A stretch of 64,000 nt of DNA from Siniperca chuatsi. Lineage: Eukaryota; Chordata; Actinopteri; Centrarchiformes; Sinipercidae. Below are positions 9,621 through 56,305 of the stretch, piece by piece. Position 1 is the stretch's first letter. Each line of letters opens with the position of its first letter. The notes below the pieces were generated by a model that saw nothing but the letters and a program-made list of their open reading frames with translations, ran no database searches and was not told the DNA's origin. A program made the position numbers and the translations under genes. The DNA is taken from contig NC_058055.1 of assembly GCF_020085105.1 (NCBI RefSeq), positions 15,625,822 through 15,689,821 on the forward strand, read 5' to 3'.

Positions 9621-9632
9621 CACATATTTTAA

Positions 9633-28411: not shown

Positions 28412-28620
28412 ATCAGCATAATGTAGCTGGGCACAGCCAGTGTGGGATATCATACGTTCAACAGGGTCATCCTCATTGTCTTTCTGGCTGCGGTCATGGG
28501 ATTAAGTGGACACCATCCTGTTTCAATGCACGGCGCTGACTCAGGCAATCTGCTGAGGACAACACGTGATGTTATTAATAAACAAATGATAATACAGTTT
28601 TAGGAACAACCACAGAACTT
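28412..28620 (-). pseudogene. coa4 pseudogene, N-terminal part
   Basis: On the minus strand from ATG at 28516 the reading is MVST, a stop, then SHDRSQKDNEDDPVERMISH and TGCAQLHYA. This parallels residues 1-34 of the intact coa4 at 35173-35427. It breaks off before the second cysteine. The flank to its right (GTTATTAATAAACAA, ATACAGTTTTAGGAACAACC) matches the flank of intact coa4, and weaker matches continue to about 29530 against 36430. It is thus a genomic duplicate with its intron, not a retrocopy. Confidence 0.82.
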
Positions 28621-28654
28621 CTGAGGTGTTTATACATCTTGTCTTTGCTGTTTG

Positions 28655-29085
28655 GGCCACTCAGCTGTGGAACTCTCTACCTCCCTACCTTTCCTTACTA
28701 TAACCCTTACTATAATTGTAAATTATTAAAATCACTTGTTCAAAAAATCTTTTTTGTAAGGGTCGATTAAGTCACTTTTAAGGAATGGAACAATACCACT
28801 TTTTGTCTCTCGATACTAAGTCTGAGGCATCACATTGGTTGAGATGTTCATGCACCAGCAATGGTAAAATTGCATTGTTACAATTTTATAATTACAGGCC
28901 AATACTGAATACTGAGGCCTGATACAATCCAGTTTATCAGATTAATCACTACATTTTAGCTGTGGTTTTAATGGTTTATATATAATATTACTTTTGGTCT
29001 AATTTTTATGTACTTTATGATTTGGTGAGTCACTTTGTCCCGAAAAGTGCTTAAACCATATAACATTTATTGAGTTCATTTTTGA
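28655..29085 (+). repeat. Probable L2-like LINE 3' end
   Basis: The plus frame contains TQLWNSLPPYLSLL, a phrase typical of the C-terminus of L2/CR1-type polymerases. A tail resembling TTTGTCCCGAAAAGTGCTTAAA follows at about 29033. It inserted into or next to the duplicated coa4 intron. Confidence 0.4.
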
Positions 29086-31991
29086 TAGTATGATTTTTTT
29101 CCCTGCATTTTTAGGTACCAGCAATGAAAATACTCGTCCGTTCTAAGCAGCAGCCCTCCAGGAGGAAAATCAGATCTGTCATGGATTTTAACATTATATT
29201 TTATTGTATTGCTGTATTGAGGGTTTTTTTTTAATCCTGACAGATCACTGAGAAGTTCCCCTTCCCTCTGGTGAGTTGGTACTTTCAATATCCTTCTGTT
29301 AACAAACTTGATGAGCACTGAATGCCTTTGATGAGTGGGTTTAATGAAATAGCACTACAAGGCGGCGATGATGCAAGACCGTCTGATATCACAGATAGGC
29401 TAAATTGTGCCGGGCTACCGTGAACATCTAGGTTAACTAACTGTTACGGACAGCAGCAAAAAAAAAAAAAATCATTTTAGACATGGAGGTATTAAACAAA
29501 GTTTTAGGCAGAAAACAACATAGATACAATTAAGAAATAGCTCATGTTTAGGTATTGAGAATGGGGTTAAAGTATCCATTACATTCATAACTATGAGCTT
29601 TTCATATCAACACTATCAGTTATCATATTGTTTCATGTAGGACATATTCATATATCCATTGGCTGTCAGTGGAAGCATTAATGACAAAACAAGTAGAAAA
29701 TGTCTAGGAAGGAAATTATTGTTGTTACTGTTCATTGGCTATTGCGATTTCTATTTTTTCAAATGTAGTAGACCATGTAGTGCTGTCACAGAACTGTCAT
29801 TCATGGTACAACTTGCACTGTACACATAAACCCACTAGAGGGCAGGCACTAATCAAATTACCATTCTCCAGTCTGCGTCCTCCATTATGGACAGTTAAAA
29901 GTACAGTGTGATATATTGTTGTATTGTATCTTAATTTGATATGTTTATAAGAGAACAGGCAAGAGCAGCCATACGTCTGTGGTGTGCACAGTGTCTCCAT
30001 GTGTGCCTCTGCTGTCTGACCCCTGTAATTAAGTGTCCATGTAAATCCCATATTTTGTATGATTCTCTATAAATTCTGAATGTCTTACTTGTTTGTACTA
30101 TGTTTGCACTGACTGTGGAAAAGAATTTCCTCCTTGAGGACAAATAAACTACCCATCTATCTATAAAGAAAATGTCCCTGTGTATTAAAGTACACGTAGG
30201 ACATGTTAATGTTTAATACCATATAATATAATTCAAATTTTATTATGTTTTAAGTTAACATGTACTGTAGAAACTAGAAAAAAAGTTATCTGTGGTAATC
30301 TAACGACCGATGTGAGTATGAATCTGGTGATTATATGTACCATATTAAAAACCTCAAGTGGTAAATTGCTCCAATAACCACCCTATCATGTGACTAATGT
30401 TCATCTCTGTTTGATGTTCGTAGAAGTAGGTTCTTAAATACTTTATTTTACTCAACCTAGAAGAAGAAACCAGGAGTTTCAAAGACTTCAAAGAGTCAGT
30501 AATGACCGAATAGGCCTAATACTTTTCAAATGACATATTTTTATTTGAACACAAGTAAATACATATTGTTTCATTATTACTCAAACAAAAGAACTAAACT
30601 GATGTGGTGCAGCAATATTGAACACATCATATTGAAAAAAATATTGCATACATACAAATAAACTGCTTTACAAGAGCACAGTTCTCTGGTAATATTGGTC
30701 TGCTCAAACCATCTTCAGTGGGGCACGAGGACCAAAAATTGTGTAATCAAATGTTTGAATAGCAATTCTTCTGAAATAAAAAAAAAAAATAGCTGTTAAA
30801 ATAATTTCCAGATTATGAACAGGGTTGATGTTGCAGTGACAGTTGAATCAGGCAGGCCAGTAGGCAAAGTTTGACAAGAACGTCTGAATTTACAAGAAGT
30901 ATAAGAGAATTACATTATCGTATACTAACTACTAGTATTTGTGATTGTGCCTGTGATCTGTACCGCTCTGTAATAATGGAGTTGAATGGTCACTTGTAGT
31001 TTTAGTTTCTGTCTGAGTGCAACCTTCAACCTCCACTAGCCCTACACACAGACAACCCACCACCACCATGCCCCAAACTGTAACCTCAACTTGTGTAACT
31101 TATTCTTATATCTGAATAATTGACTTTAAAAAAAGCCTTTGATTCCTGAGTTTGCTTGAGACACTCAAACAGCTCTTGTCTCTTCTTGTCTGTTCATCCA
31201 AAGTGCTGCATAAATCAGAGCTTAGTCACAGAGCACAGAGTGTAACACCTGCTTTAACTGTTCCCAGGATTCCTCACGTTGCAAAGACTGACTATTAGGT
31301 CGCATGAAACTCAGTATTGCATAATTATGTACCTGCTTTAGATTCATATAAATACAGTATAATATAAATGTTTTCTGTAACACATTCATGAGGCACTCTA
31401 TTAAAACTTGAAGAATTTACAAGAATTTGTGTGAACTTGGCTGGTAAAAAGTGAATATGCAGTGCAATATGATCACTTGTTTACTGCATAGTGTTTGTTC
31501 GCAGAGGATGGATTTATTGTTAAACAGGCCACAGTAAGCCAAAACAAAATTATTCTAATGGGTCCAATTTGTAATGCCATTACCAGAAAGTGGTGGTTAA
31601 TGACTTTAACAAACAAACATTTTACTGTTTTAAACATGAGGGAGGGAGGTGGCCGAATACAGTCATTGTTTTTGTGAAGATGTTATTTCATTAACACCTT
31701 CGGTCAAAAGGGCGGCAAGAGAAAAGCCAGTGGTTTTTATGCTTCCCACTTGCCAACTGTCCTCTGTTTACTTTTAGTTTAAGCAAATGACAAGTTTAAA
31801 CTCACATTGTTCCAAGGTCTGTAATTTTAGAAAATGATACCTACATTTTTATTTGCCCCTGCCCCATGCTCTTAACACTCCAAGTCAGGGTTTTATGAAG
31901 CTGCTCATACTTGTTAAATATAATTTGGAATAATGATAGAAGAAACCATCTTTTCATCGTGAACACGTCAAGCATGTCCTCAACGCACTGT
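29086..31991. other. Intergenic, decayed OR/coa4 unit flanks
   Basis: No gene is recognised. Bases around 29100 and 29500 resemble the coa4 intron (36310-36430). Bases near 30680-30730 (TCTGCTCAAACCATCTTCAGT) resemble conserved 3' flanks of minus-strand ORs at 39400, 44845, 49410 and 57025. A LINE-like tail with CTAT repeats lies at 30098-30160. This could be the remains of a unit whose OR has gone. Confidence 0.45.
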
Positions 31992-32100
31992 GTGGAGTTG
32001 TGTTCAGTTGCACAGAGGAGGTTGGCTGCATCTGCTGTTCTTTCGGTGTATTGTGGAAAGTCACCAAGCAGTCCTTGAGAGTCTGGACCTGGCTCTGGCC
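31992..32100 (-). pseudogene. coa4 pseudogene, C-terminal part
   Basis: The minus frame reads SQVQTLKDCLVTFHNTPKEQ followed by PTSSVQLNTT. It parallels SQVQTFKDCMMNFQNAQKEQ of intact coa4. The first CX9C motif and N-terminus are absent. It lies 0.4 kb downstream of the OR at 32520-33539. Confidence 0.8.
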
Positions 32101-32519
32101 AAATGATCTCTCTTTCAAAGTAGAGATTGTTTTACTTTTTCCCAACAAAAGCAAACATGTTGTTTTATTAGTTTCTCAAGCACTACAGCTGAAATTGCTT
32201 TGCTGCAGCCATCTAAATATGAGGAGGTAGGAATTTAATCTGTGAAAATAGAGCACACATGCTTTAAAAGTGCAGACATTTAATGCATGAAATCTTCAAA
32301 ACACACAAGAAGCTATAAAGTAAAAATTAGTTGATATTTTAGGTTTGGCCTACTGTGAAAGCCCTTATAATATTGGAAATGATTAAAACTATAGAAAAGC
32401 AGAGGATACTTTTTTTCTGACCAGTCAGGGCTCTGGCTTAAAATGAAACCTTTTTTCTGCAAAATCAGGTATTTAGAAAGAGTCCCTCCTCTTGGGTTTT
32501 TAACCCTCTACACAAACAT

Positions 32520-33539
32520 TTAGGGCCTACATTTTTCCTTCATTTTAAAAACTCTCCAATATTTGCTCTTATGTTGGTTTGTGCCGATTTGATTTTTTCT
32601 TACCAGTGCCAATGCTCTGATTCTGATCTCTTTGGTTTTCAAAGAATATACAATAGGATTGATGCAGGGTGGGAGGCAAGAGGCCAGCGACAGACTCAGC
32701 GCACACTGGTCCGGGTCAGTGAGACGCAGATAAAACGCGATAGTAAAAATGGTAATAAGAGGAATGTAAAACACACCAACAAGAATGATATGCTCAACAC
32801 AAGTGGCAAGAGCTTTCACCCGGCTGTCTAAAGATTTCATCCTGAACACAGTCACCAGGATGCTGACATATGACAGAAAAATAAAAATAAAGGGTCCTAA
32901 AAGAAGCAAGAAAGTAAGCAAAGAGGCCACAGACCACTGCAATGTGTAATCATTACAGGCGAGTCTAAACACAGGTGCATAGTCACAGAAATAGCTGAGC
33001 ACTCTGACAGAATTGCAAAAAGAAAGTCGCGTCATTATAACTATTGCAAACGCAACGATTCCCAGAGAAAAACACCAAGTCAGGCCGACAATACAAGACA
33101 TGCTCCGCAGTGTGTTGATTGAGTTCTGACGCAGAGGGAAATATATTGCGATCAACCGGTCATAGGCAAGTATAGCGAGTGCATATGACTCCAAAGTCCC
33201 AAAAGCATAGTAGACAAACATTTGTACCAAACATAAGTTGAATGGAATGAAATTGTCCTTAACGAGAAATATCTTCATCATGCTGGGAATAGTGCATGAG
33301 TTAAGGATTACATCAATTACTGCGAGGTTGACAACAGCCAAAAACTTTGGAGTGTGTAAACAACGATTAAAGACAATTACATAGATCACCAAACTATTGA
33401 ACAGCAATGTAACCACATAAACAAACGCTAGAAAGATGAAGTAGACACTGATGAAGGGAAATGTCTCAAATCCGATGATATAAAAGCCTGGAGGATGAAT
33501 GATGACAGAGTTGTTTAAAACAGTCCTGAGATTAGACAT
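32520..33539 (-). CDS. Odorant receptor, fish type, intact (minus-strand subfamily)
   Basis: A 339-residue seven-transmembrane odorant receptor. The ATG at 33539 follows a predicted 5' UTR intron and is shared by all paralogues (MSNLRTVLNNS). Motifs: sequon NNS at 9-11; FNS where many ORs have GN in TM1 (48-50); LHTPKF at 61-66; C103 at the TM3 start; AYDRLIAI at 125-132; loop-2 cysteines in SFCNS, YFCDY and LACND; KALATC at 242-247; NPIVY at 294-298. The C-tail differs from its paralogues and ends in KMKEKCRP. It would be an olfactory GPCR. The TM3 end reads AIYFPL where its paralogues have AICFPL. Confidence 0.93.
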   Translation of the reverse strand: MSNLRTVLNNSVIIHPPGFYIIGFETFPFISVYFIFLAFVYVVTLLFNSLVIYVIVFNRCLHTPKFLAVVNLAVIDVILNSCTIPSMMKIFLVKDNFIPFNLCLVQMFVYYAFGTLESYALAILAYDRLIAIYFPLRQNSINTLRSMSCIVGLTWCFSLGIVAFAIVIMTRLSFCNSVRVLSYFCDYAPVFRLACNDYTLQWSVASLLTFLLLLGPFIFIFLSYVSILVTVFRMKSLDSRVKALATCVEHIILVGVFYIPLITIFTIAFYLRLTDPDQCALSLSLASCLPPCINPIVYSLKTKEIRIRALALVRKNQIGTNQHKSKYWRVFKMKEKCRP

Positions 33540-33596
33540 AGTTGAACTCCACAGGCTGCGTGTTGGAGGACAGCATCTGTTTAAAAGCTCTCCAGT

Positions 33597-33850
33597 CTAA
33601 AGAACAGGGAAATCATATCATACTGTACATTAGACCTTTATAGAGGCTATAAACTACATGTATAACTTCCATGCCAGTTTGATGAGCACATTTAAATTCA
33701 GCAGAATATAAAATATATTCTCAGTAAGTTCAAACATGTATACATGTGCAAAAAAATCAGTGAATGCGGTTTACCTGACGTTCTCTTCAGGATTGTTTAG
33801 CAGCAGCTCTGTTTGATGCTGCATCCAAAAGCAGCAAACCGATGACTGCA
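33597..33850 (-). promoter_or_regulatory. 5' UTR intron and first exon of the OR at 32520-33539
   Basis: The minus-strand acceptor TTTCCCTGTTCTTTAG ends at 33597 and the donor GAACGTCAG then GTAAACC starts at 33774, giving a predicted 178-bp intron. The first exon starts somewhere right of 33775. A TATA-like AGTATATC (minus strand, near 33873) would put the start near 33845. The same splice signals recur upstream of four other ORs. Confidence 0.6.
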
Positions 33851-35172
33851 TGTCTGACCTGTGTGCACTGGAAGATATACTTTCCTCATTGATCTCTTGA
33901 GATAAATCTTCCAGCTGATTCGTACAAAGTCATTTTGCAATACCCTATTAATGAGATTAATATGATCTATACTGAGGTTGTAGTTTACTCTGATTAAACG
34001 TCTCTTGCATTCAAAACAAACATCTAATGATTGTTTTGAATGATGATTAAGTGAGTTGGAGCATCTCACAATACTCTTTTGGATACATGGAAGATTACAA
34101 AGTGAGCAAACAGCAAAGTATTCCCTAAAGACACATGGATCTTTAAACAGGAATGTTAATATACGTATTATACAAAAATACGTTCTGCTCATTGGAGTCA
34201 CCAGCTTATGTTGTTCTTGATAATGCTTTGATTTCTTGCATTGTAGCTCCAAGACCCCTTTTATCAAACAGTGTTTTTTTAAAAGAAATATCACAGATTT
34301 TACAGTTTGGTAGTGGGAGACATCATTTATTCATATTTGTTGAATATTTGTATTTTTAGCTGTTGAGTTTTTGGTGTGCTATTTTTCCTAAACCTTGTCT
34401 ATGCAGTCACTGAGCCATATACATGCCATGGATGGAGCACTTTCACTGAAATGTACTGATACTGGAATAAGTCAGTGAATCTCTCATTCAACAATTTGTA
34501 TCCACCCTAAATCCTAAAATCAACTGAGATTCCTTTGAGATCTGTTATCTGCTTCTGTTTAAAGTAGTGTAAGATCTGAATCACTGATTAAACATTTCTC
34601 CCTGACACAGATTTTTTACTAAAGAGTATTTATCCCTGTACGCGTTATTGCCTGACTAAATTAAAACAAAGTGAATACTGGTTTGAGGCAGATCAATATT
34701 TGAGTTGTTTTTGTTGTTTTTTTAAGATAATGACATACATTTCTTTTTTTATCATAAACATAACATAATCAACCATTTTTGTCCATTAAGGATCCCTTAA
34801 ATTATGTTTTTTAACAATACAGTATTGACCAAGATATGTACTGAGTGGGACATTTTACAATTGAAAAATTAACTTCCCAGTGCTCTCTGGTGGACAAACC
34901 ATATAATAAAGACACTGTTTCTAAATGACCTCAAACATGTCTTTGGTATTTCTGTACTTCAATTTCTTGTTACTCATCAGCCAACTTATAAACCGATACG
35001 AAATATCTGCGATAAGCTTCTGTTTATCAGTTGGGCAACACACACTTGAAAGTCCAAGACAGGAGTTTTGTAGCTTCTCATACTTATTTATTTTCATTAT
35101 GAATAGTTAAATTAGGTACAGTCTTTCCACCTCAAGCAGGTCCTGTGGTGTGTGTGTGGAGGGGGTGGGAGT
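33851..35172. other. OR upstream region, conserved in five copies
   Basis: Bases to about 34640 recur upstream of the ORs starting at 41835, 46402, 50970 and 60358. Open frames of 60-165 codons found in each copy (33797-34294 here) are conserved only because the DNA is duplicated, and they show no domain. Confidence 0.6.
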
Positions 35173-35427
35173 TCAGCTGTGCGCAGACTCAGTGGAGGTT
35201 GGCTGCTGCTTCAGCAGCTGTTCTTTCTGGGCGTTTTGAAAATTCATCATGCAGTCTTTGAAAGTCTGGACTTGGCTCTGGCACGCTCGCCAGTCCTGGT
35301 GTTCTGCCATGCACTCCTGCACAGCATAGTGGAGCTCGGCACAGCCAGTGCGGGATATCATCCGTTCAACAGGGTCGTCCTCATCCTTGTCTTTACGGCT
35401 GCGGTCGTGAGGTGAAGGGGACGCCAT
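35173..35427 (-). CDS. coa4: Cytochrome c oxidase assembly factor 4 (twin CX9C protein)
   Basis: An 84-residue CHCH-type protein. Twin CX9C motifs lie at C29-C39 and C49-C59, the pattern oxidised by the Mia40/CHCHD4 relay on import into the mitochondrial intermembrane space, giving a helical hairpin with two disulfides. The acidic N-terminus (DEDDPVERMISRTGCAELHY) and the middle AVQECMAEHQDWRACQ with VQTFKDC strongly resemble vertebrate COA4 (CHCHD8), which supports complex IV assembly. The ATG at 35427 follows a possible acceptor (TGTCCTCAG at 35464), so the coding region is probably one exon with the first exon upstream near 36.5 kb. It is the only intact copy among five or more coa4 fragments in the window. 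Confidence 0.92.
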   Translation of the reverse strand: MASPSPHDRSRKDKDEDDPVERMISRTGCAELHYAVQECMAEHQDWRACQSQVQTFKDCMMNFQNAQKEQLLKQQPTSTESAHS

Positions 35428-35860
35428 CCTGTTTCAATGCACAGGCCTGTTTCAGTGGGTCTGCTGAGGACAACACATGATGTTATTAATAAACAAGTGA
35501 TAATACAGTTTTAGGAACAACCACAGAACATCCTGGCTGTTTGTTCAATATGCTACTCAGGCCTTTTAGTTGTGAAATGTATCTCTAAATCTCTGGCCGT
35601 AAAATCTGTAGTTATTTAACTCATTCTCTTTAAATGGGAGTTTTGAGAGGGTAGTAATTGTATGCTTTCAATTTTAATAATATTTTCTCATCTTTTATTA
35701 GTTTTTATGGTTGGTGGTGTGTGTTGTCAGTATATCAATATAACCTGTCTTGTGAGATACTTTGTAACTATATATCAAAAACTGCTTTTTTGAAAAGGCA
35801 TTTATTGTTTTTACCAACAAATATATAATTTGTGCAATATAACACATGTGTATGCAACAG

Positions 35861-36295
35861 CAGTGCTGGAATGTAAGTACATTTACTCAAAGATTGTACT
35901 GTACATGTAAGTACACTTTTAAGGTATTTGTACTTTACTTGTGGGAAAAATGTACTGACACCAATACGTTTGACTGCTGCATAGTTAATCACAGTTACTT
36001 TGCAGATTAAGATTTTACATAGAAAACAAAACGATGATGAAATGTGAACAGTTCAAATTAGCTCCACCTCGACCAGTTGCTACATTTACATGCTTATGTT
36101 ACATGTTAATGCATTAATAATAACAGTCTGAACAGGGGCATTGTGCACAGAGAGTAGTTTTACATTTGATAGTTTAACGTTAAGGACACTTTGCTGATAA
36201 TGTCTCTGTACTTTTACTTGAGTGCGATTTTGAAACCAGGACTTTTACTTGTAATGGCTTATTGAATTGTTGTATTTCTACTTTTGTTCAATCAC
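35861..36295. mobile_element. CAGTGGTGGAA-type MITE in the coa4 intron
   Basis: The element starts CAGTGCTGGAATGTAAGTAC and contains GGTATTTGTACTTTACTTG, CAGATTAAGATTTTACATA and ACTTTTACTTGTAATGG. This is the common percomorph MITE rich in AAGTAC/GTACTT. The right terminus is degraded. It is absent from the coa4 duplicate at 28.4 kb. Confidence 0.65.
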
Positions 36296-36479
36296 AGTAA
36301 ATATTAGAATTAGGTTCCAGCAACGAAAAATACTCGTCAGTGTCATTTAACATAATGTGGTTTCAATTTAGTTTAGTGTCAAGTCGTGTTAGGCAGAAAG
36401 TAACAGCATACGCTCCTACATAGGTTAGCTAACATAATCGAGAATGAGGCTAGCTAACACAGACTTTCACATTACTCTC

Positions 36480-36720
36480 CTTCGTTCTCACCGGTTTATC
36501 CTCTCTGGGTGAATCCGTCCGTCGAGACACTGAAATTAACTTTCCATCACCTGCATAACTCTGGTGTTTTCATAACCAGCCACACGGTCAAAGCTGTACG
36601 TGTTACGCGGAGGACACATTTGAGCGGAGGACGATAGTGTAGCCGTAAAATAGTGCCGTCGATGCATACATCAGTTCCGCTGGATAGCGAGAACACAACT
36701 GAAAGTGAAAACAGTGGCGT
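36480..36720 (-). promoter_or_regulatory. Probable coa4 promoter / first exon region
   Basis: A short run richer in CpG than its surroundings (GTCCGTCGAGAC, GTTACGCGGAGG, AGTGCCGTCGATG) lies about 1.1 kb upstream of the coa4 coding exon. That is where a housekeeping promoter is expected. No exact start or donor is assigned. Confidence 0.45.
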
Positions 36721-36814
36721 AACGTGGTATGGGTATCATCGGATGATCCGTAATTCATTTGTAATTTAAAAACGAAAACAACGTAAATCTGTTATTTGTT
36801 TCAAAACCCAGCAC

Positions 36815-38562
36815 AAATTCGAGGTACTTGTACTTTACTTGATTATTTCCATTATATTCAATAAAATTCAATTGTATTTATATAGCGCCAATTCATAACA
36901 TAAGTTATCTCATTGCACGTTTCCTATAGAGCAGGTTTTTATAATGTTATTTACAGAGACCCAACAAATCCCACCATGAGCAAGCACTTGGCGACAGTGG
37001 TGAGGAAAAACTTCCTTTAAGAGGCAGAACCAGACTCAGGGTGGACGGCCAGCTGCCACTGCCGGTTGGGTTGAGTGAGAGGGAGAGGGGGAGGGGAAGC
37101 ACAATGCAAATTCTACCTACAATTTTAAAATAATAATAATGTATTGGTATTGGTAATATTAATATTAATAAAGAAATAATAATAATAGGAATGACAGTGA
37201 TAGGAATAATCATGATAATAATAGTAATAAGACTAATAATAACAACTGTAGTAGCAGTTGTCGAGCAGGAACACGGGGGCAGCAGGTGGCTCACAATCAC
37301 CGATCCAGACTGCAGCTCCAGAGGCAGAAATACCTGCTGAAAGCAACAGAAGGAGAGCGGAGAGAGAGAGGAGAAAGCACAAAACTACAGGAGAGAGAAG
37401 ATGTTGAGTTTGTAACATGCATTAATGGGATAAAAATGCATACAGATGGAGAGGAGGAGAGAGGAAAGATGTGCATCATGGGAAGTCTCCTGGCAGTCTA
37501 GGCCTATAGCAGCATAACTAAAGGGATGGTTCAGGGCTCACCCAAGCCAGCCCTAACTATAAGCATCATCAAAGAGGAAAGTCTTAAGCCTATTCTTAAA
37601 TGTGGAGATGGTGTCTGCCTCCCAAACCCAAACTGGGACCTGATTCCACAGGAGAGGAGCTTGATAACTGAAGGCTCTGACTGCCAGTTCTACTTTTGGA
37701 GACTCTAGGAATCACAAGTAAACCTGCATCCTGGGAGCACAGCGTTCTAGTCGGGTAATAAGGTACTATGAGCTCTTTAAGATACGGTAGTGCCTGACCA
37801 TTAAGAGCTTTGTAGGTGAGGAGAGGGATTTTCAATTCTATTCTGGATTTTACAGGAAGCCATATGCAACTTTATACCTCTATTCCACTACATCTCCGAG
37901 GCAGTTATTGTACTTTTGACTCCACTAAATCATCATCATCTTTAGTTACTTTTCAGATTACAATATTTCAAACCCTTCCTGTCCAGTGAAAACCATGTAT
38001 CTCCAAATTAGACTTTTTACTGTAGTGTTCCCTTTTGGGTAGAGAGAATTTTCCTACTTCTTAAATTGAATTAAAAATTAAATTTAAAACTTACCTTGGC
38101 TGGAAAATGCATTGTCACAAAGAAACTTTGCTGTTTTTCTGAGCTCATGAAAAATACTTTTTAGAGATAAGTGGTTCTCACAGGACAGCAAAGCTACAAA
38201 CATGGTGATCTTATAGAATATGATCCATTGCTGTAGATTAAACTACCCAACAGTATATAAAGTAGTTAAGATTAGCTCAACCTTAAACATCTACAGCAGT
38301 AAAATGCAACATACACATTAATGCAGCAGTAACATTAATCCAGAAACATCAGATTTAATAGTAAAACACTGACAGAGACCATTATTCTGCAAATGAATAC
38401 TTTTACTTTTGATGTATTAAGTACATTTTGCTGATAATACTTACATACTTTTACTTAAGTAATGTTTTGAATGAAGGACTTTTACTTGTTGAGTGTTTTC
38501 ACAGTGTGGTATTAATACCTTTACATAAGTAAAGGATCTGAATACTTCTTCCACCACTGCAA
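36815..38562. mobile_element. CAGTGGTGGAA-type MITE split by a LINE
   Basis: The left part (GAGGTACTTGTACTTTACTT, about 36820) and the right part (37869-38562, ending CTGAATACTTCTTCCACCACTG) belong to one MITE. The L2-like LINE at 36858-37868 lies inside it. Remnants of the same nested pair recur near 43090-43440, 47655-48010, 55980-56060 and 61520-61975, so it predates the expansion of the minus-strand array. Confidence 0.65.
36858..37868 (-). mobile_element. L2/CR1-group LINE 3' end
   Basis: On the minus strand PLLTYKALNGQALPYLKEL, then YYPTRTLCSQDAGLLVIPR, is the C-terminal part of an L2/CR1-type polymerase. Its 3' UTR contains the very common fish phrase whose plus-strand form is CCCACCATGAGCAAGCACTT with AAACTTCCTTTAAGAGGCAG. 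It ends in an ATTGAATTTTATTG-like tail at 36858. An AT-rich simple region (37125-37250, AATAAT/AATATT) lies in it. 5'-truncated and dead. Confidence 0.7.
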
Positions 38563-40672: not shown

Positions 40673-40872
40673 TAATAAATAATATGATACTGCAAATGTG
40701 TGGAAACCTGGCTGTTTTGAAATGCTGATGAATCAGACAAACCATCCCTGCTTTCACTGGTCCACAGTGACAGATAAGTAAAATAAATTGTATCACCACA
40801 CACAAAGTCCTGCCTGTTTCCTGATAGTATTAAAACCTTCCACAGATTGATTTTGGATGGAAAGGAAAGTTG

Positions 40873-46402: not shown

Positions 46403-46459
46403 AGTTGAACTCCACAGGCTGCGTGTTGGAGGACAGCGTCTGTTTAAAAGCTCTCCAGT

Positions 46460-46690
46460 CTAAAGAACAGGGAAATCATATCATACTGTACATTAGACCT
46501 TTATAGAGGCTATAAACTACATGTATAACTTCCATGCCAGTTTGATGAGCACATTTAAATTTAGCAATATATAAAATGTATGTATACATGTGCAAAAAAA
46601 TCAGTGAATGCGGTTTACCTGACGTTCTCTTCAGGATTGTTTAGCAGCAGCTCTGTTTGATGCTGCATCCAAAAGCAGCAAACCGATGAC
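46460..46690 (-). promoter_or_regulatory. 5' UTR intron and first exon of the OR at 45335-46402
   Basis: Same acceptor (46460) and donor (46618) as the other copies, giving a predicted 159-bp intron. The first exon lies right of 46619. Confidence 0.6.
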
Positions 46691-48551
46691 TGCATGTCTG
46701 ACCTGTGTGCACTGGAAGATATACTTTCCTCATTGATCTCTTGAGATAAATCTTCCAGCTGATTCGTACAAAGTCATTTTGCAATACCCTATTAATGAGA
46801 TTAATATGCTTACTCTGATTAAACGTCTCTTGCATTCAAAACAAAATCTATTTATATATAGTTTTGAATGATGATTAAGTGAGTTGGAGCATCTCACAAT
46901 ACTCTTTTGGATACATGGAAGAGTACAAAGTGAGCAAACAGCAAAGTATTCCCTAAAGACACATGTATCATTAAACAGGAATGTTAATATACGTATTATA
47001 CAAAAATACAAACTGCTCTTTGGAGTCACCAGCTTATGTTGTTCTTGATAATGCTTTGATTTCTTGCATTGCAGTTCCCAGACCCCTTTTATAAAACAGT
47101 GTTTTTTTAAAAGAAATATCACAGATTTTACAGTTTGATAGTGGGAGGCATCATTTACTCATTTGTATTTTTAGCTGTTGAGTTTTTGCTGTGCTAGATT
47201 TTCTAAACCTTGTCTATGCAGTCACTGAGCCATATACATGCCATGTATGGAGCACTTTCACTGAAATGTACTGATACTGGAATAAGTCAGTGAATCTCTC
47301 ATTCAACAATTTGTATCCACCCTAAATCCTAAAATCAACTGAGATTCCTTTGAGATCTGTTATCTGCTTCTGTTTAAACTAGTGTAAGATCTGAATTGCC
47401 GATTAAATATTTCTCCCTGACACAGTTAAGCTGCCATAGCACAAACTGCTAATTTTTGATATCTGTTTTCAAGATTTTTTTTTACTAAATAAAGATTATT
47501 TATCCCTGTGTGCATTATTGCCTGACTAAATTTAAACAAAGTGAATACTGGGTTTAACATGGTATGGGTATCATTCGGACAATCCACAATTCATTTGTAA
47601 TTCCAAAATGAAAAAAACTTAAATCTGTTATTTGTTTCAAAACCCAGTACAAATTTGAGGTACTTGTACTTTACTTGAGTATTTCCATTATAATCAATTC
47701 ATTTTTATTAACACAAGTTATCTCATTGCACTTTTCCTACAGAGCAGGTCTAGACCGTACTCTCTCACGATATTGATGGTAGTGGTAATATTAATATTAA
47801 TAAAGAAATAATAATAGGATTGATAGTGATAGGAATAATCATGATAATAATAGTAATAAGACTAATAATAACAACTGTAGTGAGGAGAAGGATTATAAAT
47901 TCTATTCTGGATTTTACTGGAAGCCATATGCAACTTTATACCGCTACTCCACTATATCTCAGAGGCAATTATTCTACTTTTGACTCCACTACATTTGTCT
48001 GACAGCTTTAGTTACTTTTCAGATTACAATATTTCAAACCCCTCCTGTCCGGTGAAAACCATGTATCTCCAAATTCGGTGATTTTGAGCTAGATTTTTTC
48101 TGAAGTGTTCCCTTTTGGGTCGAGAGAATTTTCCTACTTCTTAAATTAAATTAAAAATTTACTTTAAAACCTACCTTGTTTGGAAAATTCACTGTCACAA
48201 TGAAACTTTGCTGTTTTCCTGAGCTCATGAAAAAGACTTTTTAGAGATAAGTGGTTCTCACAGGACAGCGAAGATACTTATGTAATGATCTTATAGAATA
48301 TGATGCATTGCAATAGATTAAACTACCCAACAGTATATAAAGTAGTTAAGATTAGCTCAGTCTCACAATCAACAGCATGGCCATTTTCCCCCCCTGACTT
48401 TGGATCCACCCTCCTAAAATAAAATGAGCATCCCGCAAGGTCTGTAATCTGCTTTTGTTGGCCTGAAAAGCAGAATTACTGCAATTTTAAATTGTAAACT
48501 TAGTGTCTCAGGGTTATCTCCTGAGCAGGCCATCTAGCCAGCAGGGAAGGT
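46691..48551. other. Upstream region with MITE/LINE remnants, second copy
   Basis: Second copy of 42121-43982 with very few differences. No gene. Confidence 0.6.
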
Positions 48552-48690
48552 TTCTTTCTGTGTAGTGTGGAAAGTTACCATGCAGTCTTTAAAAGTCTGA
48601 ACCTGGATCTGGATTTGGCATGCACACCGTTCCTGATGCTCAGTCATGTACTTCTTAGTGGCACAGTATAGCTCAGCACAACCAAATAGA
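48552..48690 (-). pseudogene. coa4 pseudogene fragment
   Basis: Same fragment and same lesions as at 43983-44121, copied with the 4.57-kb unit. Confidence 0.83.
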
Positions 48691-49953
48691 CCTAGCTCCT
48701 TTAAAATATATATTAATATTTTCATTCATCCAATCAAAGCACCCATTGGATTAGAGCTAAAATGAATGTGGTAAAGCCACTTAAATCAAGAATCAAGAAT
48801 CTATTCTTCAAACAGACATAAAGCACACAGGGATGAAAAGTTCACACATTTAATGCAGGAAATCTTCAAATGAGTTTTTTCTTTTAACATTTCAGCTTAC
48901 TGTGAAAGCTTTTTACAGTCAGACCATTTTATTCCAAAATGTTGAAAATCCCTTGAATGAATACAACTAATTGCATGTGATAACCACATGATATCAGAGG
49001 TCAGGACACACATCTTTATGGGGAGTGTGCTTCTTACTATAGATCATCATTTGCTCTGAAAGTGTACCTTATGCATGATGCCATGATCTTGTTTTAGGCC
49101 TACATGCCCCGCCAGAGTGATCATTCTGGGGCTTGTTTTCATCAGCAAAACGTCTCGTCAAAAATAACATTACTGAGCAGTTGAAGCAGCTTCAAATTTG
49201 AGAGATTAAGTTTTGAAAATGAATTGTTTTAATGAAATCTCATCACAATGTCACAATTTTTCCATACCTACATCTTTGAAGATTCACAAAACATATAGAT
49301 ATTAGAAAACAAACCTGCAGACACAATTAAAGAATATTTATTGAGAATTTTATGTGCTGGGATTCATTTGTAGTCTCACTAACAAGAGGATAGTTTTCCT
49401 GCTATGTCTGTCTGCCCAAAACCTTCTTCAGTAGAGTACGAGGAGCAGCAGTCAGCTTCTCCAAAGATATTTATTGAAATGCTTACAAACTATGCACCTT
49501 TCTATTTACGAGATAACCCTCACATAAATGGCCTGAACACATCGGCCTATGTGGCGCAACCAGTGTGTAAAGTATCAATGATGAAAAAAAGATTAAAGAT
49601 TGTATATACAGTTATAGCACATTGGCCCAGAATTATCAGGGTATTCATAATAAATGTAATGCCTGTAAAAAGTCAGATATGTAGGAAACAAAAGACAGAC
49701 AAGTTTTTCAACACCTATGGAATACAGCTAAGATAGGTATGCATATAATATTACATATAATGCAACTTTAATTAAATCACATTCAAATTAAATTGTGTGG
49801 TTTGCAGTAAAGTACCCTGTTCATAGCCTTCTTGACACTGATGACCTCATGGTTAAAACTGGTGACCCATTTGGGACATTTCTGTTGACAGACATTAATA
49901 TTTATGGCACACAGTTCAGGCTCTTTACTGACTGCACAAATATATTGGTACTA
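48691..49953. other. OR-coa4 spacer, second copy
   Basis: Copy of 44122-45334. No gene seen. Confidence 0.6.
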
Positions 49954-50970
49954 TTATTGCTGTGTTTTATTAACCCTCCAGGGATAGCTTTTTTGTTGGT
50001 ATGTTTGTTGTGTGCCAATTGTATTTGTTCTTACCAGTGCCAGGGCTCTGGTTTTGATCTCTTTGGTTTTCAAAGAATATACAATAGGATTGATGCAGGG
50101 TGGGAGGCAAGAGGCCAGCGACAGACTCAGCACACGCTGGTCTGGGTCAATGAAACGCAGATAAAACCCGATAGTAAAAATAGTAATAAGAGGAATGTAA
50201 AATACACCAACAAGAATGATATGCTCAACACAAGTGGCAAGAGCTTTCACCCGACTGTCTAAAGATTTCATCCTGAACACAGTCACCAGGATGCTGACAT
50301 ATGACAGAAAAATAAAAATAAAGGGTCCTACAAGGAGCAAAACAGTGAGAAAAGAAGCTGCAGACCACTGCAATGTGTAATCATTACAGGCGAGTCTAAA
50401 CACAGGTGCATAGTCACAGAAATAGCTGAACACCCTGACAGAATTGCAAAAAGACAGTCGAGTCATTATACCTGTTGCAAATGCTGTTACTCCCAGAGCA
50501 AAACACCAAGTCAGGCTGACAATACAAGACATGCTCCGCAGTGTGTTGATTGAGTTCTGACGCAAAGGGAAACATATTGCAATCAACCGGTCATAGGCAA
50601 GTATAGCGAGTGCATATGACTCCAATGATACAAACGTATAATATACATACATTTGTACCAAACATAAGTTGAATAGAATGAAATTGTCCTTAACGAGAAA
50701 TATCTTCATCATGCTGGGAATAGTGCATGAGTTAAGGATTACATCAATTACTGCGAGGTTGACAACAGCCAAAAACTTTGGAGTGTGTAAACAACGATTA
50801 AAGACAATTACATAGATCACCAAACTATTGAACAGCACTGTAACCACATAAACAAACGCTAGAAAGATGAAGTAGACACTGATGAAGGGAAATGTCTCAA
50901 ATCCGATGATATAAAAGCCTGGAGGATGAATGATGACAGAGTTGTTTAAAACAGTCCTGAGATTAGACAT
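49954..50970 (-). CDS. Odorant receptor, fish type, intact (minus-strand subfamily)
   Basis: A 338-residue receptor whose first about 326 residues match the translated OR at 45335-46402. Family start MSNLRTVLNNS at 50970; AYDRLIAICFPL; loop-2 cysteines; KALATC; NPIVY. The tail ends WRVNKTQQ, which resembles the WRV tail of the OR at 32520 and probably represents the ancestral reading frame. It has its own copy of the conserved first exon and intron. Twin products such as these would be expected to share ligand specificity. Confidence 0.91.
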   Translation of the reverse strand: MSNLRTVLNNSVIIHPPGFYIIGFETFPFISVYFIFLAFVYVVTVLFNSLVIYVIVFNRCLHTPKFLAVVNLAVIDVILNSCTIPSMMKIFLVKDNFILFNLCLVQMYVYYTFVSLESYALAILAYDRLIAICFPLRQNSINTLRSMSCIVSLTWCFALGVTAFATGIMTRLSFCNSVRVFSYFCDYAPVFRLACNDYTLQWSAASFLTVLLLVGPFIFIFLSYVSILVTVFRMKSLDSRVKALATCVEHIILVGVFYIPLITIFTIGFYLRFIDPDQRVLSLSLASCLPPCINPIVYSLKTKEIKTRALALVRTNTIGTQQTYQQKSYPWRVNKTQQ

Positions 50971-51027
50971 AGTTGAACTCCACAGGCTGTGTGTTGGAGG
51001 ACAGCGTCTGTTTAAAAGCTCTCCAGT

Positions 51028-51260
51028 CTAAAGAACAGGGAAATCATATCATACTGTACATTAGACCTTTATAGAGGCTATACATGTATACATGTATAAC
51101 TTCCATGCCAGTTTGATGAGCACATTTAAATTTAGCAATATATAAAATGTATGTATACATGTGCAAAAAATCAGTGAATGCGGTTTACCTGACGTTCTCT
51201 TCAGGATTGTTTAGCAGCAGCTCTGTTTGATGCTGCATCCAAAAGCAGCAAACCGATGAC
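51028..51260 (-). promoter_or_regulatory. 5' UTR intron and first exon of the OR at 49954-50970
   Basis: Acceptor at 51028 and donor at 51188, giving a predicted 161-bp intron. A short TACATGTATACATGTATA repeat lies inside. This copy is slightly more diverged than the two to its left, marking the edge of the recent duplication. Confidence 0.6.
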
Positions 51261-52021
51261 TGCATGTCTGACCTGTGTGCACTGGAAGATATACTTTCCT
51301 CATTGATCTCTTGAGATAAATCTTCCAGCTGAGTCTAACAAAGTCATTTTGCAATACCCTATTAATGAGATTAATATGCTTACTCTGATTAAACGTCTCT
51401 TGCATTCAAAACAAAATCTATTTATATATAGTTTTGAATGATGATTAAGTGAGTTGGAGCATCTCACAATACTCTTTTGGATACATGGAAGATTACAAAG
51501 TGAGCAAACAGCAAAGTATTCCCTAAAGACACATGTATCATTAAACAGGAATGTTAATATACGTATTATACGAAAATACATACTGCTCTTTGGAGTCACC
51601 AGCTTATGTTGTTCTTGATATTGCTTTGATTTCTTGCATTGCAGTTCCCAGACCCCTTTTATAAAACAGTGGTTTTTTAAAAGAAATATCACAGATTTTA
51701 CAGTTTGGTAGTGGGAGGCATCATTTACTCATTTGTATTTTTAGCTGTTGAGTTTTTGGTGTGCTAGATTTTCTAAACCTTGTCTATGCAGTCACTGAGC
51801 CATATACATGCCATGTATGGAGCACTTTCACTGAAATGTACTGATACTGGAATAAGTCAGTGAATCTCTCATTCAACAATTTGTATCCACCCTAAATCCT
51901 AAAATCAACTGAGATTCCTTTGAGATCTGTTATCTGCTTCTGTTTAAAGTAGTGTAAGATCTGAATCGCCGATTAAATATTTCTCTCTGACACAGTTAAA
52001 ACACATAGCACAAACTGCTAC
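51261..52021. other. OR upstream region
   Basis: Fourth copy of the conserved upstream DNA. It stops at the Gypsy fossil after CACAAACTGCTA. About 0.4 kb present at the equivalent place in the other units is missing at the fossil's far end. Confidence 0.6.
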
Positions 52022-55000
52022 TGTCAGATTGTCAGCTGGCAAATACAGGACACGGAGGTAAGTGCAGATATGAGGGAGGTTTATTGCAACAGTTGGAGTT
52101 ATAAACAGGTGGAGCAAAATGGTAGACAACTTAGGCAAGAACTAGGAATGTCTACGAGAGTCTTATCTGTAGTAGAAGTCCGTTCTGTTCACTGGAAGTT
52201 ACGGGGAGCAGGAGAACCAGGAGACGAGGGCACACACAGGCGGAGGGGAATCCAAGGTACGCGGTGATCTGCAGTAGATAAGTCAGTCGGGTAGAACCTC
52301 ATGGTATGGTTGAGACCAGACAGTGAGTGATCTGGGGGGAGTGTTGCTTTATAGTGCAGTGGGGTGATTGGTGGCAGGTGTGTATAATCAGTATTCAGGT
52401 GATTGGGATCTAATGAGTGCGGTGGGTGGAGCCGGTGGTGTCTGTCGGCTCCCTGACCGTACCCCCTCCTCCAGGGGCGGCTCCTGACGCCCTCTGTCTG
52501 TGACGGGGTCGGCCTCGGCTTCTGGGTGCAGGACGATCCGGATGAGCCCGGTGAAAGTCAGCCAGTAGAGCAGGGTCGAGGATGTCGTCTCGCTGAACCC
52601 AGGATCTTTCCTTGGGCCCGTATTCTTCCCAGTCAACCAAGTACTCGAGTCGGCCGCTCCGTCACCTGGAATCCAGGATCTTATCCACCCGGTAGATCAG
52701 AGGTTGTTTGATTATGTTTGGAGGAGGAGATATGGGCGGCTCATCGGGTTCTGTGGAAAAAGGAGACACAGGTTTAAGGAGTGATACATGGAATAAGGGG
52801 TGAATGTGGTACCTCGGGGGAGCTGGAGACGGTAGGTGACCGTTAATCTGCCTCTCGATGGTGAAGGGACCTATGTAGTGGGGACTCAGCTTAGGGCAGG
52901 GCTGGCGGAGACGTAGGTCCCGGGTGGAGAGCCAGACACAATCCTCTGCGAAATGCTTATGTCTCCGCACAGCATGCCGCAGGTGTATATGGGCTGAGTC
53001 CCACACTCTCTCGCTCGAAACCAGTGGTCTATCGCTGGAACCTCCGATGGTTCCTCTGGAACAATGGGGGTTGGTACCCGAGCATGCACTGGAACGGGGT
53101 GAGGCCCGTGGTGTTCTGTTCGAGAGAGTTCTGTGCGTACTCGGCCCAAGGGAGGAAGCGGTTCCAGCTGGTCTGATTGTTATGACAGTAGGTCTGAAGA
53201 CATCTCCCTATCTTCCACTCATTCTGGGCGTTGGTCTGAGGATGATATCCGGATGAGAGCTTGACTGATACGTTGAGGAGCTTGAAAAAGGCGGTCCATA
53301 CACGTGAGGTGAACTGTGGTCCACGGTCTGAGACGATCTCTTCAGGGTTGCCAAAGTTGCGGAACAACTGGTGGAAACGGGCTTCTGCGGTTTCTAGTGC
53401 GGTAGGTAGTCCACGCAAGGGAATGAGTTTGCAGGCCTTGGAGAAGCGGTCTACCGCTACAAAGATACAGGTGAAACTGTCTGATTTAGGCAAGTCTGTG
53501 ACGAAAGCGACTCTGACGTGGGACCAGGGCTGTCATGGAATGGGGTACCAGTTTGCCGATGGGAAGTTGACGTGAGGTTCAGGCGATGGCAAAGACTGAG
53601 CATCCATCCACGTATTGGGAGATATCCTAGACCATACTGGCCCACCAGTAACGAGCCTGGAGGAGCGAGAGAGTTCGCTGGCTGCCTGGTGTCCAGGGAA
53701 GCATGCACAGAGCCCAGAAGGTCTTTACTTAAGCTGGTCGGGACGTAAACCTTACCCCGTGGGCCTCCCAGCAGAGTGGGTTCGGAAGCTGTGGCGGCCC
53801 GTATCTGGTCATCCAAGTCCAAGTCATCAAGTGGATGGGGCTTACGAGTATGGCTGGAGGGAGGATAGGCTCAGGTGTTGGGATTCCTTGGGGGTATGGA
53901 TTCTTGAGAGGGAGTCTGCTTTGACGTTCTTTTCTCCGGGTTTATAGGTGATTGTGAAGCGGAAACGGGTGAAGAAGAGGGTCCAGCAGGCTTGGTGAGG
54001 GTTGAGTCTCTTGGCTGAATGGAGGTATTCCAGGTTTTTATGGTCAGTAATCATGGAGAACGGGTGATTAGCTCCTTCCAGCCAATGCCTCCACTCCTCC
54101 AGTGCCAACTTGATTGACAGCAGCTCCCGGTTGCCGATGTCGTAATTCCGCTCTGCCGGGGTCAGCTTCTTGGAGAAGAAGGCACACGAACGGCATCACC
54201 GGATATTCGTAGTGGCCAGAAGGGGTGATGAATGGCGTCTTCCATTCGTCCCCCTCCCAGATCCGAACGAGGTTGTAGGCATTTCGCAGATCCAGTTTGG
54301 TGAATATGCGAGCCCCACAGAGTTTCTCAAGGACAGCAGGGACCAGAGGAAGAGGATAGGGGAGTTTGACGGTTTGACTGTTGAGGGACCGGTAATCAAT
54401 GGTGGGCCGCAAGCCTCTGTCCTTCTTGCCCACAAAGAAGAAGCTCGACGCCGCGGGTGAGGTGGAAGGTCGGATGAAGTTCTGATGGAGAGCCTCCTGG
54501 ACGTAATCTTCCATGGCCTTGCGCTCCGGGATGGACATGGGATATACACGTCCTTTGGGCGCTGTGGCCCCAGGCAGCAGGTCTAGGGCACAGTCCCATG
54601 GCCGATGTGGTGGTGAGAGGGTGGCTGCCTGTTTGCTGAAGACATCCTGGAACGCCACATAGTCAAATGGGATGTCGAGGTCTGGTGGTGGGTCGCTACT
54701 CGGGTGGAATGTACGTGGACGGGGGAGTGACTGACCAGAGGTTTGGGAATAGAGGAGATACACTGTTGAAAGCAGGCTGGACTCCCATCTGACTTCAGGA
54801 GAGTGTTGAGTGAGCCATGGGCGTCCCAGGATGATGTCTACGGTGGGTCCCTCCAGTACCAGGAAGGAGATTTGTTCACTGTGCAGACAACCCACATGTA
54901 GGGTGATGGACGGTGATTGATATTTGACTCTTCCACATCCTAGCGGCTTTCCCTGGATTGTTTCGATTTTCAACTCGGCATGACGTTGAAACAGTAACTC

Positions 55001-55374
55001 TAGGCATTTCAATAATGACGGTGTGAGATGAAGTTGCCAGAGGAGCTTGAGTCAAGGAGGGCACGTACTGCAATGACAGAATGTGGGGTGAGTAGTTGGA
55101 CCTCGAGAAGAGTTCATTTAGAAATGGCAGGATAACTATGGATGGTACTCACCGCAGGACATGGAGGACGGGTTGGGCATGCTCTGATCTGGTGCCCAGG
55201 AGCCCCACAATACAAACACCAGCCCTGGGTAAGATGGCGTGCACGTCCTTGGGGTGAAAGACGGCTGGTGTCAAGTTGCATGGGTTCTGGTACTGGAGGA
55301 CAGGCCTTGGGTGAGAGCGGTGAATGGGCTGTTTCCTCTGGTAGGCATGCGGTCAGTAACTGAGCAATTTTCAT
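52022..55374 (-). mobile_element. Ty3/Gypsy LTR retrotransposon fossil, 5'-truncated
   Basis: Read on the minus strand from right to left the parts are: end of gag with CCHC knuckle (CLYCGAPGHQIRAC, near 55180), protease-like region (about 54800-55000), reverse transcriptase (about 54170-54600), RNase H region (about 53840-54110), integrase (about 52660-53500), a purine-rich tract, and one LTR of about 430 bp (52022-52455). The 5' LTR and most of gag are lacking. It is broken, with several breaks in the reading frame. It is absent from the paralogous units, so it is younger than the array. Sushi-like affinity is inferred from gag and layout. Confidence 0.82.
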
Positions 55375-56166
55375 AATCATGATAATAATAGTAATAAGAC
55401 TAATAATAGCAACTGTTGTAGCAGTTGTCTAGCAGGAACAGCAGGTGGCCCTCAATCATCGATCCAGTCTCTGCAGCTCCGGAGAGAGACGAGAAAGCAC
55501 ATAACTACAGGAGAGAGAATATGTTGAGTTAGTAACATGCATTAATGGGATAAAAATGCATACAGATGGAGAGGGAGAGGAGGAGAGATGAAAGCGATGC
55601 ATCATGGGAAGTCTCCCGGCAGTCTAGGCCTATAGCAGCATAACTAAGGGATGGTTCAGGACTCCCCCAAACCAGCACTAACTATAAGCATCATCAAAGA
55701 GGAAAGTCTTAAGCCTACTCTTAAATGTGGAGATGGTGTATGCCTCCTGAACCCAAACTGGGACCTGATTCCACAGGAGAGGAGGTTGATAACTGAAGGC
55801 TCTGGCTCCCATTCTACTTTTGGAGACTCTAGGAACCACAAGTAACCCTGCATCCTGGGAGTGCAGTGTTCTAGTGGGATAATAAGGTATTATGAGCTAT
55901 TTAAGATACAATAGTGCCTGACCATTAAGAGCTTTGTAGGTGAGGAGAAGGATTTTCAATTCTATTCTGGATTTTACAGGAAGCCATATGCAACTTTATA
56001 TCTCTACTTAACTACATCTCCAAGGCAAATTTTGACTCCACTACATTTGTCTGACAGCTTTAGTTACTTTTAAGATTATAATATTTCAAACCCCTCCTCC
56101 TAAATTAAAAATTTAATTTAAAACCTACCTTGTCTGGAAAATGCACTGTCACAAAGAAACTTTCTG
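55375..56166. repeat. L2-like LINE and MITE remnants
   Basis: Continues the unit's nested LINE from its AT-rich core: CATGATAATAATAGTAATAA at 55377, then the UTR and C-terminal region (55650-55980) close to 37520-37850, then MITE remnants. The stretch corresponding to about 43480-43985 is mostly deleted. Confidence 0.65.
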
Positions 56167-56305
56167 TTCTTTCTGTGTAGTGTGGAAAGTTACCATGCAG
56201 TCTTTAAAAGTCTGAACCTGGATCTGGATTTGGCATGCACACCGTTCCTGATGCTCAGTCATGTACTTCTTAGTGGCACAGTATAGCTCAGCACAACCAA
56301 ATAGA
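56167..56305 (-). pseudogene. coa4 pseudogene fragment
   Basis: Same decayed fragment as at 43983 and 48552 (GCAELYCATKKYMTEHQERC and on), so the lesions predate the unit duplications. Its left flank is cut by a local deletion. Confidence 0.83.

Follow-up and report, generated by a model that had tools for sequence, protein, structure and literature searches.

An odorant-receptor array in Siniperca chuatsi that carries a putative coa4 gene as passenger and probably grew by unequal crossing-over

How does a small gene, predicted to serve the mitochondrion, come to lie both whole and in pieces among the odorant receptors (ORs) of a fish? The question is raised by a 64,000-nt window of the Siniperca chuatsi genome (GCF_020085105.1, NC_058055.1, 15,625,822 to 15,689,821, forward strand), where an earlier note had placed six coa4-related stretches on the minus strand, each of which blastn recovers near its proposed position, and had read them as one surviving gene amongst the debris of an amplified OR-coa4 pair. 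Numbers above 64000 denote sequence to the right of the window, in the same coordinate count. Across the array there are nine coa4 copies, two of them open (I1 and I2) and seven broken (f1-f7):

28405-28516, minus strand: f1, the 5' part of coa4 (cds 1-114), with one in-frame stop; blastn 83% identity, E 2e-24
31996-32099, minus strand: f2, the 3' part of coa4 (cds 146-253); blastn 75%, E 2e-15
35173-35427, minus strand: I1, intact coa4, translating to 84 aa with a twin CX9C pattern
43983-44115, minus strand: f3, remnant of about cds 81-210; blastn 70-71%, E 6e-16 to 3e-17
48552-48684, minus strand: f4, remnant of about cds 81-210; blastn values in the same ranges as f3
56164-56299, minus strand: f5, remnant of about cds 81-210; blastn values in the same ranges as f3
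67312-67447, just right of the window: f6, coa4 remnant
74722-74857, just right of the window: f7, coa4 remnant
80551-80805, just right of the window: I2, second intact coa4, 99.2% identical to I1, with two coding bases different

The intact gene is, judged from its sequence, coa4, a putative mitochondrial complex IV assembly gene. Direct reading of the I1 translation places cysteines at 29, 39, 49 and 59, which is the twin CX9C pattern, and the product aligns with a human COA4 sequence at 58% identity over 67 aa (E 1e-29); the Pfam CHCH model scores 23.0 bits, under its cut-off of 27.2, and matches to solved structures, taken up to E 1, include no COA4 chain. All five fragments inside the window prove to be remnants of coa4, with blastn E values from 2e-15 to 2e-24, and the same coa4 searches, run as a control on the 144-kb sequence after reversal, yielded no blastn match at E<=10 and a best tblastn match of only E 0.71. 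A whole-genome protein search (E<=0.001), which missed f2, found eight coa4-like places, every one of them inside the OR array, and protein and DNA searches together listed no copy elsewhere in the genome, f3-type remnants being covered by the protein search (E<=0.001) only.

The remnants fall into two lineages, one consisting of f1, which resembles the intact gene, and the other of f2-f7. As f1 clusters with intact coa4 and f2 joins f3-f7, and as the missing parts differ, coa4 copies broke at least twice, and a single ancestral pair with a single decay is not supported. Within the second lineage, f3, f4 and f5 are indeed identical across the 139 bp given in the earlier note, and the defects that they share extend to f6 and f7: all five have lost the 5' end (in f3-f5, the first ~80 bp of the cds), carry C39 to Y, which removes a motif cysteine, and contain a 6-bp in-frame insertion. 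In f3-f5, little or no coding sequence is recognisable past about cds 210. The view that these copies were made after breaking is supported, but not all lesions are common to them, since a 5-bp deletion is additionally shared by f3 and f4, and ~330 bp just downstream, present in f3, f4 and f7, is missing from f5 alone, at a short near-repeat; f6 retains about the first 160 bp of that stretch, followed by minisatellite. Older co-duplication rests on short matches, given that f2 matches f3 at only 70% in 122 bp of flanking sequence and at 85% in 61 bp of the coding part.

The receptors around these copies belong to one OR subfamily in tandem, with 13 OR places, 5 of which are broken or fragmentary. 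The locus lies between a PREB/RPA1 side and a C98-peptidase side. The members in or reaching into the window are as follows:

32520-33539, minus strand: OR a, intact; Pfam 7tm_4 E 3.7e-48
39924-40685, minus strand: OR b, 5'-truncated
40873-41835, minus strand: OR c, intact, with a second type of 3' flank common to ORs k and m
45335-46402, minus strand: OR d, intact chimaera, e-like in its frame and 3' side and c-like upstream
49954-50970, minus strand: OR e, intact; the first 946 bp of the frame equal OR d
59393-60358, minus strand: OR f, frameshifted; against OR i over 945 bp, no substitutions and two 1-bp indels
63491-64000, minus strand: OR g, the 3' part within the window, the gene running on to 64441

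Four ORs were scanned with Pfam 7tm_4, and besides OR a these were OR d (4e-48) and two plus-strand ORs (2.8e-53 and 1.3e-40). Among eight intact frames, dN/dS is 0.27-0.75 in 27 of 28 pairs, the remaining pair being identical, and the ORs are under purifying selection. Selection had been thought to keep only the ORs, and yet both recent coa4 duplicates are open and 5 of the 13 OR places are not intact. The rule that every decayed copy other than the leftmost lies downstream of a minus-strand OR is true of f2-f7, but the nearest OR upstream of I1 is the broken OR b, and that of I2 the broken OR j.

Were receptor and passenger copied together? Shared blocks span both, as the earlier note had supposed. 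The stretch 40881-47451 (minus) matches 45451-52020 at 98.3%, in tandem and with a shift of 4570, a single OR and a single remnant being present per unit; 49316-56175 (minus) matches 67532-74405, also at 98.3%; 56161-60920 (minus), with f5 and OR f, matches 74719-79481 at 99.58%; and 32511-39155 (minus), with OR a, I1 and the sequence upstream, matches 77882-84538, with OR i and I2, at 98.2%. This last, 6.66-kb duplicate holds both intact coa4 copies, so that the gene has two survivors and not one. The recent blocks start in one OR, cross a coa4 copy and reach the upstream flank of the next OR, and because they span OR to OR, the DNA in between, coa4 or remnant included, is copied along. The two sides of each recent copy agree: where f3 is paired with f4 and f5 with f7, the OR frames lack substitutions (d/e, 0/946; f/i, 0/945), and the adjoining intervals show matching pairings, f3 to c with f4 to d (0/1082), f5 to e with f7 to h (10/4118), and I1 to a with I2 to i (2/562). 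A search of 50900-56400 for an LTR pair that would date the element there found no repeats of at least 80 bp.

The receptors at the joints are mosaic. In OR d, 39/39 informative sites upstream are c-type and 109/109 from +132 onward are e-type, i.e. a single donor switch in 148 informative sites, between -20 and +132 of the ATG; when switch counts were tested against 2000 shuffles, none had as few, the minimum being 43. OR i passes from a-type to f-type at -708/-705, with 5 switches in 106 sites, and OR h switches type at -118/-115 and reverts in its 3' end, with 16 switches in 546 sites (0/2000 shuffles as few in either case). These repeated switches in ORs i and h tell against crossing-over alone and call for conversion too. 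The frame of OR a is mosaic as well, its 5' part being k/c-like and its 3' part g/h-like. Mosaicism at the joints makes OR trees vary by partition, and the tree of the remnants is all but devoid of signal (support 34-63), so that the expected match between the two trees is not supported; blocks and joints were analysed in its place. Nor can the remnants themselves serve as the neutral clocks once suggested, f3, f4, f5 and f7 differing at 0-1 of 248 sites; the longer passenger intervals, taken whole, are informative and show that the OR frames are not clock-like. Between units d and i the passenger differs at 12/1254 positions and the OR frame at 44/946, and dates for the array drawn from OR sequence alone would mislead.

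As read from these alignments, recent growth of the array has gone by blocks that run from one OR to within or near the next, with mosaic ORs at three joints. Same-orientation paralogues sit in shared blocks, and chimaeric paralogues sit at the joints, cleanly in OR d and with extra switches in ORs i and h. We therefore favour, at a probability of roughly 0.86, an OR array with a passenger coa4 that grew by unequal crossing-over between ORs, with some gene conversion. Non-allelic homologous recombination would have taken place between similar OR stretches of ~2 kb, gene conversion would have contributed in part, and coa4 would have been a passenger between the recombining receptors; older coa4 duplicates would have decayed in at least two lineages, and one copy would have stayed open until it was recently duplicated together with its OR, giving the two open copies of today.

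Could some of the near-identical blocks instead be haplotypes that the assembly left unmerged, side by side? Allelic variation in fishes includes divergences of 0-0.4%, and the closest blocks (0-0.4% divergent) fit that range. However, the contig spans 29.6 Mb with no N in the 284 kb examined, donor switches occur in the ORs where the copies meet, and haplotypes would hardly account for the older copies, with K of about 1-3% for ORs d, e, f and i against each other or h, and 22-40% when the f1 and f2 flanks are compared with I1, all of which makes even a partial artefact improbable. Slightly less probable still is that coa4 copies and ORs duplicated separately, as two tandem families that happen to share one place. 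No OR of this subfamily lies beside f1, and coa4 is not detectable in four OR-OR intervals (c-b, g-f, k-j and m-k), both of which also speak against our explanation; OR g, for its part, has had its 3' flank replaced by minisatellite, and no adjoining coa4 was detected there. The poor resolution of the remnant tree would suit separate duplication too. Yet the sister pairs (f3, f4), (f5, f7) and (I1, I2) sit in continuous duplicated blocks that contain ORs, which contradicts separate duplication for the recent copies; f1 and the split of f2 from f3-f7 may have arisen in that way.

It is hard to believe that the short open frame of the f3-f7 remnant has been retained for a separate function, although the matched part of f3-f5 has no stop, the frame stays open for 63-76 codons, f3, f4, f5 and f7 are nearly invariant, and third positions differ from I1 more often (20/42) than first and second positions (17/82; Fisher p 0.003). 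Such invariance is expected at the block rate (P 0.31 for at most one change in 248 bp), constraint on I1 alone would give the third-position excess, and a model in which the frame died at once fits only slightly badly (p 0.04-0.07 for the three levels of constraint assumed); moreover, the start region and one motif cysteine are gone. Weakest of all is the idea that processed retrocopies of coa4 mRNA landed independently beside ORs, which we reject because the flanks look unprocessed and extend past where the transcript presumably ends: the coding sequence of intact coa4 has no intron anyway, so that intron absence from the coding part of the remnants is uninformative, but homology of f1 to I1 runs about 166-169 bp further upstream (to 28686) across an intron-acceptor-like CAG, suggestive of a 5'UTR intron, that of f2 runs to 31871, beyond AATAAA and 128 bp past the stop, f3-f7 lie within kilobase-long shared blocks, and the genome searches listed no copy away from the array.

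Returning to growth by exchange between receptors, what might it mean for coa4 itself? We raise, as a doubtful idea, that turnover of smell receptors sets the number of coa4 copies as a side effect, that this number still differs between individuals, and that f2-f7 are what is left of an earlier second coa4, functional for a while. If this were true, the position of coa4 between recombining ORs would let unequal exchange alter the dosage of a nuclear gene that serves the mitochondrion, and passenger intervals would tell the age of a block apart from exchange between ORs for each gene in turn. The locus offers a readable case in which inter-receptor DNA records when blocks were copied and receptor frames record exchanges, and in which a mitochondrial gene is copied through the dynamics of an adjoining, unrelated family.

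We found no OR-coa4 array in print among the matches listed for coa4 or chchd8 together with odorant or olfactory receptors. In fishes, OR subfamilies of single orientation and contiguous arrangement have been ascribed to tandem duplication, and tandem copies have been traced to unequal crossing-over (PMC1325023, probably Alioto and Ngai; Lu et al. 2012, PMC3464592); the S. chuatsi array is alike in being one contiguous subfamily in one orientation; the relevant passages of those papers mention no non-OR passenger, whereas this array has one. Gene conversion is reported to have diversified a primate OR cluster (Sharon et al. 1999, cited in PMC3464592), as against a fish array here. The passenger itself resembles COA4/CHCHD8, described as an assembly factor of cytochrome c oxidase (PMC7909247) and likewise a small protein with the twin CX9C pattern, but in S. 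chuatsi there are two open copies, sited within an OR array. Growth of an OR array with a non-OR passenger is a known kind of gene-cluster growth, and co-duplication has precedent: a 2003 study, to go by its title, concerns OR cluster growth that copied an unrelated non-OR gene (cited in PMC3464592 and PMC1794568), much as coa4 has been copied along here. Compared with what that title conveys, the S. chuatsi array is distinguished by a passenger that is a small, putative mitochondrial assembly gene, by the decay of 7 of its 9 copies, and by joints that fall at the ORs.

A protein search with the intact 84-aa coa4 across the entire 719-Mb genome (65 contigs) listed eight coa4 places, f2 being absent and none lying outside the array, and a whole-genome DNA search, for which I1 and its surroundings (550 bp) served as query, found four, all in the array (I1, I2, f1 and f2); the reversed-sequence control gave no blastn match and a best tblastn E of 0.71. 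Mapping coa4 and odorant receptor (OR) matches over 144 kb, made up of the window at C14:15625822-15689821 and 80 kb of flank, and translating the named stretches, we found nine coa4 places, every one on the minus strand.

coa4 copies in the 144-kb mapping (window-scale positions lie right of the window)
28405-28516, minus, remnant f1
31996-32099, minus, remnant f2
35173-35427, minus, intact I1
43983-44115, minus, remnant f3
48552-48684, minus, remnant f4
56164-56299, minus, remnant f5
window-scale 67312-67447, minus, remnant f6
window-scale 74722-74857, minus, remnant f7
window-scale 80551-80805, minus, intact I2

The earlier note had a single coa4 surviving; there are two, the second to the right of the window, and they differ at 2/255 bases (99.2% identity) with one amino-acid change. 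We use the name coa4 because of the twin CX9C spacing in the translated protein and its likeness to a human COA4 sequence (58% over 67 aa); against Pfam CHCH the protein scores 23.0 bits, under the cut-off of 27.2. Directly 3' of I1 lies a ~110-bp repeat (34901-35018), with at least 37 other places among the best 40 of 1245 candidates.

The remnants look like DNA copies rather than the processed retrocopies that would have spoken against co-duplication: f1 and I1 align over a stretch that begins 166 bp before the ATG and ends at cds 114, the alignment of f2 with I1 runs from cds 146 to 128 bp beyond the stop, past AATAAA, and f3-f7 retain about cds 81-210. The upstream part common to f1 and I1 includes TTATTAATAAC...TCCTCAG, which resembles the end of a putative 5'UTR intron. 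In the flanks, f1 is closer to I1 (36/167 sites differ) than is f2 (51/128), and f2 matches f3 both in its flank, at 70% over 122 bp, and in its coding sequence, at 85% over 61 bp; there are thus two remnant lineages, separately broken. Within f3-f7, a 5-bp deletion is common to f3 and f4, and ~330 bp present in f3, f4 and f7 are missing from f5; f6 keeps about the first 160 bp of that stretch, followed by minisatellite, and lacks roughly 520-550 bp present in f4 between OR and remnant. A reverse-transcriptase-like fragment (57392-58192), spotted by eye in translations, lies between OR f and f5 and is possibly one reason for their larger distance. Differences between f3 and I1 fall at 10/41 first, 7/41 second and 20/42 third codon positions, and if the f3 lineage is modelled as dead ever since the split, the fit is marginal (p 0.04-0.07 for the three strengths of I1 constraint assumed); f2-f7 may descend from a second coa4, functional for a time.

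The minus-strand OR subfamily occupies 13 places, a to m, all in the array. Among the best 124 of 313 candidates in a whole-genome OR search, 12 of the 13 are listed (l is missing), and matches outside the subfamily have at most 41% identity.

OR subfamily members
a, c, d, e, g, i, k, m: minus, open frames (in g the C-terminal end is replaced)
b: minus, 5'-truncated
f, h, j: minus, broken
l: minus, OR fragment

Among the eight open frames, dN/dS is 0.27-0.75 in 27 of 28 pairs, the remaining pair (d, e) being identical. Read along the minus strand, eight of the intervals of passenger DNA downstream of an OR hold a coa4 copy, namely a (f2), b (I1), d (f3), e (f4), f (f5), h (f6), i (f7) and j (I2); no coa4 was detected in the 144-kb mapping in the four following c, g, k and m; fragment l lies in the one after m. 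Remnant f1 is located beyond f2, with no subfamily OR between them. OR g (63498-64556) is flanked by direct copies (61086-63497 and window-scale 64556-66980; 98.6% identical) of 2.4 kb, rich in minisatellites (periods of 19-124 bp in the left copy), into which its frame continues, giving 824 open codons. A second, divergent OR group on the plus strand (2919-26051), in opposite orientation and about 40% identical to the first, includes broken or partial members at 18.8 and 23.3 kb.

Duplicated block pairs
40881-47451 and 45451-52020, 98.3%
49316-56175 and window-scale 67532-74405, 98.3%
56161-60920 and window-scale 74719-79481, 99.58%
32511-39155 and window-scale 77882-84538, 98.2%

Gag/pol-like retroelement fragments were spotted by eye in translations at 15138-16507 (plus) and 53029-55012 (minus), the latter within the block common with window-scale 67532-74405; no repeat pairs of at least 80 bp were found in 50900-56400, which holds it.

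An OR has different nearest relatives in its upstream flank, in its frame and in its downstream flank. Among these mosaics OR d stands out most clearly: it carries c's base at 39/39 informative upstream sites and e's at 109/109 sites from +132 (counted from the ATG) on, a single donor switch where the minimum in 2000 shuffles is 43. In OR i the changeover from an a-type upstream to an f-type frame falls at -708/-705, with 5 switches in 106 sites that include two small patches, and in OR h an e-type upstream meets a g-type frame at -118/-115, the 3' end being again e-like (16 switches in 546 sites); the frame of OR a is likewise mosaic. The shared blocks and mosaic joints that this analysis shows are the marks expected of unequal crossing-over among ORs accompanied by some conversion; we infer that process, its order and the absence of any role for coa4.

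Maximum-likelihood trees on four partitions group d with c (97) and e with h (99) for the OR upstream, d with e (100) and f with i (77) for the 5' part, and the latter pairs again for the 3' part (65 and 99) and the remnant (63 and 57, with h joining f/i at 34). The remnant pairs match the frames just upstream and conflict with the upstream flanks of those same ORs, as mosaic joints predict. The remnant tree alone, however, carries next to no signal, f3, f4, f5 and f7 differing from one another at 0 or 1 positions in 248-251 bp and f6 from these at 4-5 in 208-211 bp.

The proposal that remnants serve as neutral clocks is partly useful once moved to the passenger intervals, where signal exists: 1/1346 differ for d-e, 1/1255 for f-i, 12/1254 for d-i, 12/786 for d-h and 21/710 for f-h. 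From a coa4 copy to the next OR, f3 to c and f4 to d differ at 0/1082, f5 to e and f7 to h at 10/4118, and I1 to a and I2 to i at 2/562; upstream of I1 and I2 the figure is 14/3650. The d-i frames differ at 44/946 (dS 0.111), more than their intervals (Fisher p 6e-8) despite purifying selection on the frame, whereas d-e and f-i show the reverse, their frames being identical and their upstream flanks 20/1028 and 11/895 apart; intervals therefore date the blocks, and OR frames do not.

The array's surroundings include, on the right, exons for which PREB (5tf2) and RPA1 (9mj5, 1l1o) are the closest solved relatives, separated by an LRR exon and one that matches SET weakly (21.5 bits, under the cut-off of 22.4), and, on the left, a C98-peptidase exon.

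Flank exons (PREB-like, LRR, weak SET-domain and RPA1-like, right; C98-peptidase, left)
L015:6290-6796, 9046-9915
L022:8723-9181
L026:4583-5128
L028:4894-5850

Our literature search for an OR-coa4 array found no paper; tandem expansion of fish OR subfamilies (PMC3464592, PMC1325023) offers a precedent. The OR-coa4 array is real and instructive, and its growth is of an already known type. In mouse, ORs have reportedly co-duplicated with MHC class I, a further precedent for a non-OR gene copied along with the receptors, as coa4 is here.
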